DNA of 36,126 nt from a virus, in the IMG/VR virus record IMGVR_UViG_3300042515_002691, positions 1 through 36,126 of that record. The stretch is one strand, 5' to 3'. Of this stretch, positions 128 through 11,964 are shown piece by piece. How positions within the stretch are numbered: the first letter of the stretch is position 1; the number at the start of each line of letters is the position of its first letter. The translations under genes were made by a program, and so were the position numbers. The notes under the pieces are model-generated. The model was not told where the DNA came from. It did not search any database and was given only the letters and a program-made list of their open reading frames with translations.

Positions 128-757
128 ATGGTGGCCACCATCGGCGGGAATGGCGGTGCTGGACCGTCGCTCTTGCCGATGAAGGCCTGTAACGGCAGTG
201 GTAACGATGATTACCGGCGTCGCTCGGCATCGCTACCGCTGCCCGCGGTCACCGGTAGCGATGCCGATAGCACCTGGTCGTTTCTGCGGATGTCGGCTTT
301 GGATTGGCTACGGTTGAATGGGGCGGATTTGGGTCCAGATGATTTCGTCTATGCTGATCCGCCCTATCTGCATGATAGCCGGTCGAGCGGTCGAGACTTC
401 TACAACTACGAATTGACATACGAGGATCATGAGCATCTGATCGCCTTGCTGCTCCGGTTGCGGTGCAAGGTGATGGTTTCGCACTATCACCACTCCATGT
501 ACATGAATGGCCTCAAGGGCTGGCGCTGGGATGCTTGTCGGACGGTTGATCGGGCTGGTAACGAAAAGACCGAGTACATTTGGTGCAACTATGACCAGCC
601 AACCCGCTTGCATGATTACCGATGGCTGGGGGCCGACTTCCGTCAACGGCAGAACATTAAGCGCAAACAAGCGCGGTGGGTTGCCAACTTAGCGAAGATG
701 GATCGGCTCGAACGACTTGCAATGATGGAAGTGTTAGAACAGGAGTTTGGAGGATAA
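2..757 (+). CDS. DNA adenine methyltransferase (D12 class), C-terminal part; 5' end lies at 35878
   Basis: The complete gene joins 35878-35999 to 1-757 (292 codons plus stop) once the circle is closed. It should transfer a methyl group from SAM to adenine N6 in DNA. In full-length numbering, PGGKG (residues 7-11) is the SAM-binding motif of D12 enzymes, FISLFLG (28-34) and DLD (51-53) follow, and YADPPY (158-163) carries the catalytic DPPY. The C-terminal part has SHYHH and EYIWCNY as in phage Dam-like enzymes. Between about residues 67 and 128 there is an unusual Gly/Ala/Ser-rich stretch encoded by DNA with large palindromes; it sits where the family normally runs directly to DPPY. The next gene follows after 1 base. 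Family assignment is firm; the recognition site is unknown. Confidence 0.88.
   Translation, partial: RPAAVNVGLDLDADVVEHWRNRQPSAGVIVGADAPAVTAGAPMVATIGGNGGAGPSLLPMKACNGSGNDDYRRRSASLPLPAVTGSDADSTWSFLRMSALDWLRLNGADLGPDDFVYADPPYLHDSRSSGRDFYNYELTYEDHEHLIALLLRLRCKVMVSHYHHSMYMNGLKGWRWDACRTVDRAGNEKTEYIWCNYDQPTRLHDYRWLGADFRQRQNIKRKQARWVANLAKMDRLERLAMMEVLEQEFGG
123..267. repeat. Palindromic insert within the methyltransferase gene
   Basis: Bases 123-146 form a perfect 24-bp palindrome centred on GGTGG/CCACC. Bases 224-238 and 253-267 form a 15-bp perfect inverted repeat around a 14-base loop. Both lie inside the in-frame stretch encoding the low-complexity residues about 67-128. The density of dyads in one coding segment suggests an inserted palindromic element kept in frame. 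A fragment with partial resemblance (TTACCGGCGTC, then CTCGG, and a hairpin) occurs between genes near 19790-19840. Confidence 0.6.
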
Positions 758-758
758 T

Positions 759-1709
759 ATGGGCGAGAATAGTCAAATTGAGTGGACCAACCACACGTTT
801 AATCCGGTGATTGGCTGCACTAAAGTTTCCGATGGGTGCAAATTTTGCTACGCCGAAACGATGATGGATAAGCGCTACGGCAAGGCCAAGTGGGGGCCGG
901 GGCAAACCAGAGTTCGCACTTCGGCGGCAAACTGGCGAGAGCCGTACAGGTGGAATAAGCGAGCAGAAACGCAAGGGCGGCGGGCGCGGGTTTTCTGTGC
1001 GTCGCTGTCTGAGGATCATTCCGATTGGATTGGGCCACGCGGCGATCTGTTTGCCATGATTGCGGAAACGCCTTGGTTAGATTGGCTGTTGCTCACCAAG
1101 CGCCCTGATGGGTGGGCGGATCGCCTTCACGAAGTTGTTCAAAACAATCATGACGGCGGTGATATGCTTGCGTCTCAATGGCTCGATGGGGATGCGCCGG
1201 CCAACGTCTGGATCGGGACTTCGGTCGAAAATCAGGCGGCGGCTGATGAGCGAATCCCGCATTTGCTCAACATCCCGGCGAAGGTGCGGTTCCTGAGCAT
1301 GGAGCCACTGTTGGGGCCGGTCAACTTAACGGGCTTTGCGTCCCCGCTCTGGGGTAGATTGCCGGCGAATCAGTTTATTAGCTGGGTGATTGTCGGCGGT
1401 GAGTCGGGCCACAATGCGCGCCCTGTTCATCCCGGCTGGGTGCGGTCCCTTCGGGATCAGTGCCAAGGGGCGGGGGTGCCGTTTTTCTTTAAGCAGTGGG
1501 GCGAGTGGCTCGATCAAGACTGCATGACGGCCGCTCAGTATGAGATTGCCGCGGTTTTAGATCCAGAGTCGATTGGCGGGGTTCGTCGGTACAAGCGCGA
1601 TGGCTTTTTGTTTCCTACTCACGACAGCCTTGTTTTTCGGATTGGCAAAAAGAACGCCGGTCGGCTGCTCGATGGCGTTGAATGGGGCCAGTTTCCGGGG
1701 GCATTATGA
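759..1709 (+). CDS. Phage Gp37/Gp68 family protein (DUF5131)
   Basis: A 316-residue protein of the phage Gp37/Gp68 family (DUF5131), whose biochemical role is not established. Visible family marks are the N-terminal IEWT, a three-cysteine cluster C20-x6-C27-x2-C30 followed by YAE, LLTKRPD, SVENQ, FLSMEPLLG and the C-terminal VGGESG and FFKQWGEW. The cysteine cluster resembles radical-SAM iron-sulphur ligands but has different spacing. The ATG at 759 is preceded by GGAGG at 5 bases, so it is preferred over the in-frame TTG at 747, which overlaps the methyltransferase. It sits in one operon between two methyltransferase genes, which hints at a nucleic-acid modification role (inference). Confidence 0.85.
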   Translation: MGENSQIEWTNHTFNPVIGCTKVSDGCKFCYAETMMDKRYGKAKWGPGQTRVRTSAANWREPYRWNKRAETQGRRARVFCASLSEDHSDWIGPRGDLFAMIAETPWLDWLLLTKRPDGWADRLHEVVQNNHDGGDMLASQWLDGDAPANVWIGTSVENQAAADERIPHLLNIPAKVRFLSMEPLLGPVNLTGFASPLWGRLPANQFISWVIVGGESGHNARPVHPGWVRSLRDQCQGAGVPFFFKQWGEWLDQDCMTAAQYEIAAVLDPESIGGVRRYKRDGFLFPTHDSLVFRIGKKNAGRLLDGVEWGQFPGAL

Positions 1710-6247: not shown

Positions 6248-6304
6248 ATTATAACCCAAAACAACCCAAAACGCAAACGGCGACGGGCGCAAAACGCTAA
6301 CAAG
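6248..6304 (-). promoter_or_regulatory. Promoter repeat P1 (minus strand)
   Basis: Read on the minus strand: TTTTGGGTTGTTTTGGGTTA, with the -10 TATAAT at 6248-6253. The -35 is weak (TTGCGT, 17 bases upstream). The 9-mer TTTTGGGTT is repeated in tandem in the spacer, as in P2 and P3. A nearly identical 56-bp copy lies at 7637-7692. It drives the 6207-4016 operon. Confidence 0.7.
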
Positions 6305-6336
6305 CGGCACCCCGGCAGTGCCGGAATGCTGATATT

Positions 6337-6741
6337 TTATTGTCGATTTCGGATGTTGAGGCGAGACAAAAGACTGAGGACTATGGCAGGGGGAACGATG
6401 ACGATGGGGCCGCTCTGGGCAAGAAAAAGCCCCAGCCAGGCGGCCAGGGCTAAAATTAAAATAGCGACATTTGCGCCCCACCGGGCGGCGGCTGTGCAGC
6501 GGGCAGACCGGGAGACCAGCGAGATCTGCCAGGGGCAGCAGAGCAGGCAGAGCAATGATTACAGTAGCAAAATGGATGATCTGCCCCACTGGCCCCCAGC
6601 ACGAGCGCCCAGCCGCCACAGGCAGGACACACGCACGAGAAAGACCGCACGCGCAAAGGGCGCAGCAGGGGGGCGGCGGCAGTGGCAGCAGGGCCAGGGG
6701 AGCAGGACGGGCAACGCAGCGACGAACAACGGCCAGTACAT
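6337..6741 (-). other. Hydrophobic minus-strand frames downstream of P2 (doubtful)
   Basis: Two successive frames (6741-6559, 60 codons; 6555-6337, from a TTG) encode Leu/Ala/Val/Pro-rich peptides, the second ending with a plausible membrane segment (NVAILILALAAWLGLFLA) and a polar tail. Neither has a clear ribosome site, and the A-poor composition would create hydrophobic codons anyway. They are recorded as possible small membrane proteins only. Confidence 0.15.
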
Positions 6742-7636
6742 TCGGGATTCATGATCATTTACTCACTTTCGACTTAGGCGAGAGAAACAGGGCGGCGCGC
6801 CAGAAGCAAGGCGGGACGCACCAGGGCGGGAGGGGGGGAGCAGCGGGAAGCAAGGGAGGCAACGCCGGCCCACCGCGGAAGACCCCGACCGCGGCGGGCA
6901 AAATTACAGCAGCGCGCCGGCGACGGCGGACGCCAGAGCGGGGAGTGAGGCCACCCCCCCAGCGGGGAACCAGAAAGCGCGATGCGCCCCCGCAGGACCG
7001 AACGCGCCTGGAAAGGGAACCGACCCGGCGACGGGAACGAGGACGGCGGCAGCGCCGCCAGGGACGGCGCGCCAGCGGCGGGAGCCGCGGAGGAAGCGGC
7101 CAGCGGCAACCCCACCGGCAAAATTAAACAGCAACGCAACGCCGGACGGCGACCGCGGGCAGGCCACCACCGCCACCGACAGCAGCCCGCCGCGGCGGAA
7201 GGCCGACCAAATTAATGATTTGACTGCCCCCCCAGAGACAAGCACGGGGCCAGCCCAGGGGGAGGCGGAAAAATTATGATTCACAGCGCACCCCCCACCG
7301 GCAGCAGCCGAGCGCGGCGGGCGCGCCCCCAGGAGACAGCCCGCAGGCCGAGGGAGGCAGCGACAGGGCCGACAGCAACGCCGCGGGGGGCCACCACCAG
7401 CCACCAGGCGCCGCCAGCAAAGCCGACAGCGGCAGACAGGCCGCGGGAGGACCGCACCCAGCCCAGGGCGGCAGCAAGGCGGGCGACAGCGCCGCCCCCA
7501 GCGAAGGACAGCGCCGCCACCGAGGGAGCAGCAGCAAGACGGGAGGAGGAGAGCGCAGCAACGGACGACGGAATAAAATTCATATTAACCCCCAAGGAAG
7601 GCACCAGCCGCGAAAGAGCAGAGAATTGATGAGATT

Positions 7637-7692
7637 ATTATAACCCAAAACAACCCAAAGCGCAAACGGCGACGGGCGCAAAACGCAACAAG
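7637..7692 (-). promoter_or_regulatory. Promoter repeat P2 (minus strand)
   Basis: A second copy of P1 with a perfect -10 TATAAT (7637-7642), the same tandem TTTTGGGTT boxes and the same upstream block, differing by about two changes. It points leftwards into the T-depleted segment. Confidence 0.65.
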
Positions 7693-7876
7693 GCGCCGCC
7701 CCCACCACCCCCAGCACGGCCAGGGCGACGAACGCAGCGCGGACGCCGAACCACATATTAGGAAAAATTTTTGTGGCGGCGTGAGATCGAGAAACGGAGA
7801 CAAGATCGCCCGCCTGCTGTTAATCGGCAAAAAAGAGGGGGGTGGGATCTAGGGTGTCACGACCTGCCGGCTTACC

Positions 7877-8020
7877 GTCTGAGGCAGTTTGAATTTTGTT
7901 TTTGGATTTGCTTGGAATGTTACAAGGTTTGGGATGCTGGCAAGAATGGGTATGTAGATTTGCGAAGTTGAGCCTCACAGTTGACACAAATCCAAAAACA
8001 AAATTCAAACTGACTCAGAC
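7877..8020. repeat. 34-bp inverted repeat, 76-base interior
   Basis: 7877-7910 and 7987-8020 are inverted repeats matching at 33 of 34 positions, and the inner 26 are perfect (CAGTTTGAATTTTG and onwards). The AT-rich arms contrast with the GC-rich surroundings. No transposase gene is present, so it could be a MITE-like element, a recombination site or a structured RNA. Confidence 0.85.
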
Positions 8021-11011: not shown

Positions 11012-11045
11012 GCCTATCATAACCCAAAACAACCCCGTTGTCAAC
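11012..11045 (-). promoter_or_regulatory. Promoter P3, related to P1 and P2
   Basis: On the minus strand: TTGACA, a 17-base spacer ACGGGGTTGTTTTGGGT and TATGAT, followed by the AGGAGG site of the 10995 gene. The spacer shares GGGTTGTTTTGGGTTAT with P1 and P2, implying common control. Confidence 0.82.
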
Positions 11046-11064
11046 AAGACAAATTGCTGATACT

Positions 11065-11185
11065 TTGCGGCTATCGAAAATCATGGTACAATCTCGCCCG
11101 CGGACGACAACGCATGGTTACCTCCTTTGGTTGATGAGAAGAGCGAGCAGAAAGGGCGATCTGGAAACAGGTCGCCCTTTCTGCG
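11065..11185 (+). ncRNA. Putative small RNA unit 2
   Basis: TTGCGG and TACAAT (11087-11092, 16-base spacer) form a promoter-like pair. GCAGAAAGGGCGA pairs with TCGCCCTTTCTGC around a 12-base loop ending near 11184, with only a weak T tail. The predicted 85-nt RNA contains ACCTCCTTT, complementary to Shine-Dalgarno sequences. No ORF of note is present. Confidence 0.35.
11071..11115 (-). CDS. Candidate 14-residue leader peptide
   Basis: The minus strand carries AAAGGAGG, 5 bases, then ATG and a 14-codon frame (MRCRPRARLYHDFR) ending in TAG, upstream of P3. The ribosome site is near perfect for so small a frame. Alternatively, on the plus strand the same bases (ACCTCCTTT) mimic the 3' end of 16S rRNA inside sRNA unit 2. 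Confidence 0.3.
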   Translation of the reverse strand: MRCRPRARLYHDFR

Positions 11186-11208
11186 TCTTAGGGCCACAAA
11201 CGGTATAC

Positions 11209-11237
11209 TTGCCGCACTACAACAAATGTGTTACTAT
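11209..11237 (+). promoter_or_regulatory. Candidate promoter for the CHAT gene
   Basis: TTGCCG, 17 bases and TACTAT. The predicted start of transcription lies at the foot of the terminator-like hairpin at 11246-11286. The match to consensus is modest. Confidence 0.35.
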
Positions 11238-11245
11238 CTGCGCCG

Positions 11246-11286
11246 GACGGTTGCCACTCAAGGTGGGTGGGGAACCGTCTTTTTTT
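11246..11286 (+). terminator. Terminator/attenuator abutting the CHAT start codon
   Basis: GACGGTT (11246-11252) pairs with AACCGTC (11273-11279), possibly extended by CCAC/GTGG in the interior, and is followed by seven T (11280-11286). The ATG of the CHAT gene begins at 11287. The only ribosome-site-like sequence (GTGGGGA) is in the 3' side of the hairpin, so folding would both terminate transcription and hide the site. Confidence 0.7.
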
Positions 11287-11964
11287 ATGCCAAAAATTCT
11301 GCTGATAGCACCCCGATCAACCGGCCTTGTGGTCGAAGATGAAGTTCAGGACATTTTACGCAGTGGGCTAGATGTAACCCCGATCCTCGGCACGGTCACA
11401 CTGCAAGAAATCCTTGATGACTCCGGTGAGTATGACATTCTTTGGATTGCTGCGCATGGTGGGCCGGACGGGGTGCGACTATCAGGCGATCAACTATGGC
11501 GCACAGATGAGCTAATCGACTACGCCAAGGACTTTGCGCTTATTGTGCTGAACACCTGTAGCAGCCTTGAAATTGCGCAGGGGATTAGCAACCGATGGGG
11601 CGCCGGCGTCATCTGCACCATTGCCGATGTTGGGGATCGGGACGCTGGACGGGTCGCCGCCCGCTTTGCTCGTGCGCTGTCAACAACCGGCAACCCTAGC
11701 GACGCATACGAATACGCCAAACGGGGCGCGAATCAAACATATCTCTACGTAGGGGAACGACGCACGATGGACAACAAGCAAGACCTTTCCGCCAAGATTG
11801 ACGAACTGTCTCGGCAGGTCACGAAGATCGAGATCATGCTGAACAAGGACATCACTCTCTTGGCGTCGCGGGTCTGGTTGCTGGAACGAATCGTCGTCGG
11901 CTTGATTGTGCTTTCCCTATTAGAGTCTTGGCTGATCATCTACTGGATGAGGGGGATTGGATGA
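11287..11964 (+). CDS. CHAT/caspase-like protease with C-terminal membrane anchor
   Basis: A 225-residue protein. Residues 1-155 resemble a compact CHAT (caspase-HetF) fold: beta strand PKILLIAP, then YDILWIAAHGG with the predicted catalytic His57, IVLNTCSS with Cys91, a GAGVICTIADVGDRDAG block matching the 'Ga..V.a..w...D' strand, and a helix with SDAYEYAKRGA. Residues about 166-190 are a heptad-like coiled coil and 199-219 a single membrane helix (RIVVGLIVLSLLESWLIIYW). It would be a cysteine protease held at the membrane; no N-terminal sensor domain is present. An earlier in-frame start at 11038 would cross two hairpins, so 11287 is preferred. It overlaps the next gene by ATGA. A defence, exclusion or lysis-timing role is inference. 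Confidence 0.72.
   Translation: MPKILLIAPRSTGLVVEDEVQDILRSGLDVTPILGTVTLQEILDDSGEYDILWIAAHGGPDGVRLSGDQLWRTDELIDYAKDFALIVLNTCSSLEIAQGISNRWGAGVICTIADVGDRDAGRVAARFARALSTTGNPSDAYEYAKRGANQTYLYVGERRTMDNKQDLSAKIDELSRQVTKIEIMLNKDITLLASRVWLLERIVVGLIVLSLLESWLIIYWMRGIG

Follow-up and report, generated by a model that had tools for sequence, protein, structure and literature searches.

Within a viral DNA fragment of 36 kb (36,126 nucleotides, hereafter the window), about one kilobase is almost devoid of T on one strand. What kind of sequence can dispense with a base in this way, and what keeps that base out? A recount gave 33 T in the 980 nucleotides from 6776 to 7755 (with 259 A, 339 C and 349 G), exactly reproducing the hand count of the initial annotation as well as its T-free run of 292 nucleotides (7282–7573). 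The other T-free runs measure 128 (6776–6903), 114 (7642–7755), 114 (7010–7123), 92 (6591–6682) and 86 nucleotides (7126–7211); the longest in the rest of the window is 49. The lowest T content per 300 nucleotides is 11.7% outside the region versus 1.7% inside it, T is normal on both flanks, and none of 100 dinucleotide shuffles yielded a T-free run as long as that in the tract. Since A, C and G stand at 26, 35 and 36%, one base has been lost on one strand, which is not a G+C effect. The tract is not tandem-repetitive, no tandem repeat having been detected in it, and a structured RNA was rejected, as Rfam gave no match anywhere in the window.

The tract is not an accident of assembly either. 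L008, a viral contig from another metagenome that was found via a terminase search, has the same right flank (95% identity between window 7725–8000 and L008 1622–1897), a longer T-free tract (only two T in 172–1236) and a homologous gene. Misassembly, which the initial annotation had named as a possible refutation, is thus not borne out, and the extreme, strand-specific sequence that it had singled out is real: runs and composition were confirmed, and L008 provides an independent copy. The right border (7756–7800), where normal composition resumes at CACATATTAGGAAAAATTTTTGTGGCGG, is common to the two contigs. Inverted repeats lie beside it (7877–7910/7987–8020, 34 nucleotides, 97%; 8021–8041/8063–8083, 21 nucleotides, 95%), the 34-nucleotide one being also present in L008. 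Elsewhere in the window, a plus-strand ORF (11038–11964) gave a weak match to a CHAT (caspase-like) domain (E = 0.0019, under the Pfam cut-off).

The strand without T serves as the template for a protein-coding operon that runs leftwards. Two segments of the tract carry a period-3 signal on the minus strand (p = 0.004 each), and both are in the frames of ORFs with natural boundaries, genes b and c. Artefactual deletion of T would fit the bulk composition, but is ruled out by the period-3 signal, the conserved frames and the homologues. The view that this is not ordinary coding DNA must be abandoned, since gene b is a conserved minus-strand protein-coding gene by its period-3 signal and its L008 homologue. 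A disordered plus-strand protein, another of the options raised initially, lacks support, because long plus-strand ORFs are trivial where the want of T precludes stop codons in every plus frame.

From composition and sequence, I infer a minus-strand transcription unit (6428–7642) that would run from the −10-like box of a promoter-like repeat, P2, to a terminator-like hairpin. P2 (7636–7702, minus strand) reads TTGCG...TATAAT and is 90% identical over 67 nucleotides to a second promoter-like copy, P1 (6247–6313, minus strand), which faces genes of ordinary composition. P2 was not called by a strict promoter consensus scan, and an exact scan with the promoter repeat gave no match; a related copy of the repeat is found upstream of the A-free operon of L008. 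The putative terminator (6428–6451, minus strand) comprises 10 pairs, 7 of them G-C, and then TTTTTCTT; the seven terminator-like hits in the window are not clearly above expectation (shuffle mean 4.0, sd 2.0). RNA read leftwards from P2 would indeed be nearly free of A, as first noted, coding-strand A being 5.4% over 6428–7633, with 1.7% in gene b, 5.0% in gene c and 9.2% in candidate gene e.

Gene b (7281–7583, minus strand, 100 amino acids) runs from an ATG at 7583 to a stop at 7281. Its 303 nucleotides contain five A, located in the start codon, codons 2 and 4 and the stop codon, and its Shine-Dalgarno position is occupied by an A-free TTGGGGG. Gene c (6904–7284, minus strand, 126 amino acids) has a GTG start that overlaps the gene b stop (GTGA), a period-3 signal in the matching frame (6906–7211) and a TAA stop. 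Most T islands of the other strand coincide with these landmarks: 7574–7586 is the region of the gene b start codon, 7277–7284 the GTG/TGA overlap of genes c and b and 6904–6905 the TAA stop of gene c, while 7212–7225 and 7124–7125 are A-containing gene c codons. Candidate gene e (6456–6758, minus strand, 100 amino acids), which is Cys-rich and without a family match, would be the last gene ahead of the hairpin. A weaker candidate, gene d (6755–6901, minus strand), is suggested by ORF anatomy, namely a TTG start and a stop that overlaps the gene e ATG (ATGA); the corresponding region (6776–6903) has no period-3 signal, and gene d may not be real. Also weak is a candidate leader ORF, a (7580–7756, minus strand, 58 amino acids), which spans P2 and whose stop overlaps the gene b start. 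Homologue searches gave no confident hit for ORF a and no convincing relative for genes c, d and e. The predicted structure of the gene b product is of moderate confidence and gave no confident fold match.

The comparison of gene b with its homologue in L008 (889–1179, minus strand; 71% identity over 91 amino acids, E = 4e-23) indicates what is conserved and what varies. Differences over 96 aligned codons number 28, 20 and 53 at positions 1, 2 and 3, a third-position excess that shows the protein to be under purifying selection. In 38 codons the same residue is encoded differently, and none of these 38 changes involves a third-position A. Synonymous sites have therefore turned over while A stayed excluded, which is the outcome of the alignment of homologues proposed in the initial annotation to see which bases vary. 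Searches of phages for DNA homologues of the tract, and for homologues of the module proteins, gave none.

The gene that follows the gene b homologue in L008 is DprA-like (170–871, minus strand, 702 nucleotides). It contains exactly two A, one in the GAC that encodes the Asp of a 'GAD' motif and one in the TAG stop, and both L008 genes can use a GTG start, behind TTGGGGG. A divergent ORF (1402–1586, plus strand; MNKKLLIMLNQRAKAHQTEAEMADTPEEAARW...), with a promoter-like site of its own that has 11 of 12 consensus bases, separates the A-free operon of L008 from the shared flank and is missing from the window. Through its DprA-like gene, L008 belongs to a module that recurs on phages and plasmids and whose hallmarks are a DprA-like (SLOG/Rossmann) protein and an A-depleted coding strand. 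The window shares with this module the depletion of coding-strand A in a gene, b, whose protein is conserved with L008; it has neither the DprA-like gene nor the upstream partner gene, six-frame profile searches of the record giving nothing convincing for either (the best hit was isolated, outside the tract, with E = 0.006). Its membership of the module therefore rests on gene b, on the shared flank and synteny, and on the promoter-like repeat.

Searches of viral contigs for DprA-like relatives returned 8 and then 27 loci, in overlapping sets. The homologues comprise about 24 further viral contigs, six plasmids (from Nitrosococcus, Methylomagnum, Methylobacter and Methylocaldum) and several genomes, a relative being present also in a Thioalkalivibrio MAG. 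The module is seldom found, with hits in 6 of 369 genomes, one of them a true DprA, and in 1 of 398 genomes searched. Profiles matched 6 of 13 members (best E = 1.9e-5 for TIGR00732 dprA, 6.6e-6 for PF02481), the L014 protein scoring 21 bits with PF02481, below the cut-off of 29.6, and the sequence match to the DprA of PDB entry 3maj has E = 3.2e-5. The AlphaFold2 model of the L008 protein (pLDDT 88.2, pTM 0.85) is closest to ShosA (8zva) and HpDprA (5mll), with E of 2e-4 to 7e-3 and TM-scores of only 0.45–0.53. The hallmark protein is thus predicted to have a DprA/SLOG Rossmann-like fold, although 99% of the residues in the L008 protein are drawn from ten amino acids. A search of a defence library gave weak matches to ShosA and PsyrA only, both of which are DprA-like. 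The upstream partner gene recurs next to the DprA-like gene, partner genes having no family match, and the neighbours, where recognised, encode integrases, RecT, Rad52, RecE/YqaJ, Mu Gam, Gp157, DUF932 and HicB. DprA proper is a protein that binds ssDNA and recruits RecA. An alignment of 13 members has 22 invariant columns, of which an Asp is the sole residue that cannot be encoded without A.

Is the loss of A a property of the whole family? Homologues of normal composition would have spoken against the initial observation. Every DprA-like homologue turned out to be depleted, and the depleted base is A on the coding strand in all of them, never T. The DprA-like gene has 0.3–14.2% A in 35 loci, and the surrounding DNA mostly 20–30% (the Thioalkalivibrio contig, rich in G+C, has 15%, and L030 up to 37%); L034, a true DprA picked up in the search, has a normal 28.8%. 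A-free runs reach 636 nucleotides in L049, 561 in L039, 527 in L008 and 515 in L025. What A the extreme loci retain lies mostly in their stop codon, which is usually TAG, and in the invariant 'GAD' Asp: L043 has the same pattern as L008, and L039, L046, L049 and L050 nearly so. The pressure is not uniform, since L040, L045 and L057 retain 12–14% A, and the extreme members (L025; L016/L017/L039; L008; L043/L046/L049; L050; L052; L061) are scattered on a tree many of whose deep branches are weakly supported. Both synonymous and non-synonymous positions are depleted, A being removed at all three codon positions. Loci with little A at fourfold sites also have little at codon position 2 (rho = 0.76, p = 1.6e-7), as expected of a cause that acts on nucleotides.

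A-free runs are not diagnostic of the module by themselves: runs of at least 168 nucleotides occur in 70 of 369 gammaproteobacterial genomes, and among those listed nearly all are low-complexity repeats. L021, which carries a DprA-like tract, has elsewhere on the same contig (3974–4273, minus strand) a 300-nucleotide A-free run of ordinary low complexity, an imperfect tandem array of CTCGTCGGTCTTGG-like units. In L052, an ORF that looks by eye like an IS200/IS605-type transposase (1447–1863) follows the A-free tract directly and in frame, with ordinary A; there the A-poor state stops abruptly at foreign DNA. L014, L025 and L027 have in common a pyrimidine-rich element, TTTTCTCTCTTTTTTCCGGTTTTTCTCTCTTTT, just upstream of the A-free operon, with an apparent inverted copy further upstream in L025 and L027.

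Does the depletion concern the whole transcript or only codons? At the aligned start, strong loci have GTG and mild loci ATG, and L008, L016, L017 and L043, all strong, have A-free runs of G where the Shine-Dalgarno sequence is expected. The 45 nucleotides past the stop contain 20 A in 405 for nine strong loci and 7 in 360 without L061, a signal that is partly trivial, since A is scarce in terminator hairpins anyway. Depletion in L061 and L053 ends at the coding sequence. I take these patterns to reflect something that acts on the RNA or coding strand, most strongly in the coding sequence; a purely translational cause is less likely.

An attractive hypothesis is that strong selection against adenine in the transcript keeps A out of the module, and that A survives where the protein or decoding needs it, in the stop codon and in one invariant Asp. 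Since the pattern accompanies the module into unrelated hosts, the source of the pressure would be the module, or else the circumstances under which it operates, the message sparing itself, although this step is less sure. Equally less sure, some activity might attack or sense A in RNA, which the message would escape as ACA-less mRNAs escape MazF; the precedent is that an mRNA lacking the recognised element is spared (PMC9102682). No agent with such an activity was identified. Selection against A in the transcript, taken as a whole, has in my estimate about an even chance of being right. The fuller proposal is more tentative, and I give it appreciably less credence: these loci may be a natural family of adenine-free mRNAs, from which A is kept out because adenines of the RNA (or of the coding strand) are the target of an activity that the module carries or encounters, so that A is left in stops and one indispensable Asp and functional proteins are made out of about ten amino acids. 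The RNA needing no A of the initial annotation comes close to the preferred reading, selection against A in the transcript.

A different cause would be a mutational ratchet, in which an A-directed mutagen acts on the coding strand of the operon and purifying selection retains the remaining A; variants of it invoke DGR-like reverse transcription, adenine deamination, or adenine excision with translesion synthesis. Such a process would be strand-specific and would leave A at stops and essential residues only, as observed, and A-to-N change is the known chemistry of diversity-generating retroelements (DGRs). Yet the absence of a reverse transcriptase, already remarked for the window, extends to 33 records, none of which matched RVT_1 (PF00078) in a search whose positive controls did, and no template/variable pair differing at A was present among the repeats of the region. 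In several loci the scarcity of G at fourfold sites (0.16–0.23 in L030, L044, L059 and L061, 0.17 in L061) rules out a pure change of A to G. Change of A to any base should raise G-to-T and G-to-C differences through A intermediates. Between two Nitrosococcus plasmids, which belong to a single trio with a tract that has probably recombined in part, non-A transversions show no excess (57:98 in the tract versus 74:124 in the flank, p = 0.91) and A/G differences are suppressed in the tract (46:98 versus 174:124, p = 2e-7), which favours selection against A over an A-to-N ratchet. The N. watsonii and N. oceani tracts do differ by 7.3% (L023 41–1385 compared with L028 and L024), versus 1.9% over the next 2.6 kb. 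Hypermutation was rejected as the reason, recombination being likelier: from the third species the tract is as far removed as the flank (16 and 17%), and the protein differences look clustered. Finally, a ratchet requires a very high local rate, yet D58 and the stop are intact in every member. Adenine-directed mutagenesis, which the initial annotation had listed, therefore fits worse than selection on fourfold G and on the Nitrosococcus substitutions, and I consider it unlikely.

Selection could also act on codons rather than on RNA, if the genes must be translated while anticodon nucleases cleave the tRNAs that carry a U in their anticodon, so that codons with A are avoided. The removal of A from all three codon positions and the confinement of depletion to the coding sequence in L061 and L053 are in its favour. 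It does not account for the avoidance of A at the Shine-Dalgarno position and after the stop in strong loci, and many bacteria use U34 tRNAs to read GTG and GCG, both of which occur here; its probability is low. An A-free message might alternatively be transcribable when ATP is depleted or converted, for instance by a defence system. This would suit a depletion that spans the transcript in strong loci, untranslated parts included, but translation and tRNA charging need ATP anyway and no neighbourhood gene indicates ATP depletion, which makes ATP-independent expression very improbable. Slightly poorer still are the prospects of an R-loop or replication element, whose asymmetry would serve R-loop or origin function with the proteins as by-products: phage recombination genes are nearby (RecT, Rad52, RecE/YqaJ, Gam, Gp157), but the proteins are conserved and fold, and R-loops require clusters of G, which is unenriched in many loci, and not the exclusion of a single base. 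An artefact or simple low-complexity sequence, for which the A-free repeats of gammaproteobacterial genomes might be invoked, has a negligible chance of being the answer and is refuted by the homologues, which come from an independent assembly and complete plasmids of isolates, as well as by a non-repetitive tract with codon-level constraint.

To my knowledge, no natural gene family has been described whose message excludes one base down to its stops and an essential residue, and the open-access literature searched contained nothing relevant on adenine-free genes. Selection, if that is the pressure, would point to an adenine-directed activity, as yet unknown, in the conflict between phages, plasmids and hosts; mutation would point to an unknown strand-specific mutator. 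Under selection and mutation alike, the retained A would show which positions are indispensable, and natural, confidently modelled folds built almost wholly from ten amino acids bear on the question of reduced-alphabet proteins.

Several known systems resemble the module in part. By sequence matches and modelled fold, its protein is like DprA, ShosA and PsyrA, DNA-processing proteins of the SLOG Rossmann type; it differs from DprA in its size (about 200 amino acids), in a gene with 0.3–14% A and, in extreme cases, in drawing about 98% of its residues from ten amino acids. With ACA-less mRNAs and MazF it would share a message that is spared by lacking what the attacker recognises; there the element is a 3-nucleotide motif, removed by engineering, whereas in the module an entire base is missing from about 1 kb of natural sequence, and the attacker is putative. 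Diversity-generating retroelements likewise change coding sequences in an adenine-specific and strand-specific manner, but in the module no reverse transcriptase was found, A is missing over whole operons and no A-bearing template repeat was seen. Kinetoplastid cryptogenes, which are restored by U-insertion editing, also have coding regions nearly without one base; their genomic frames are broken and their coding strand lacks T, whereas the frames of the module are intact and the missing base is A.
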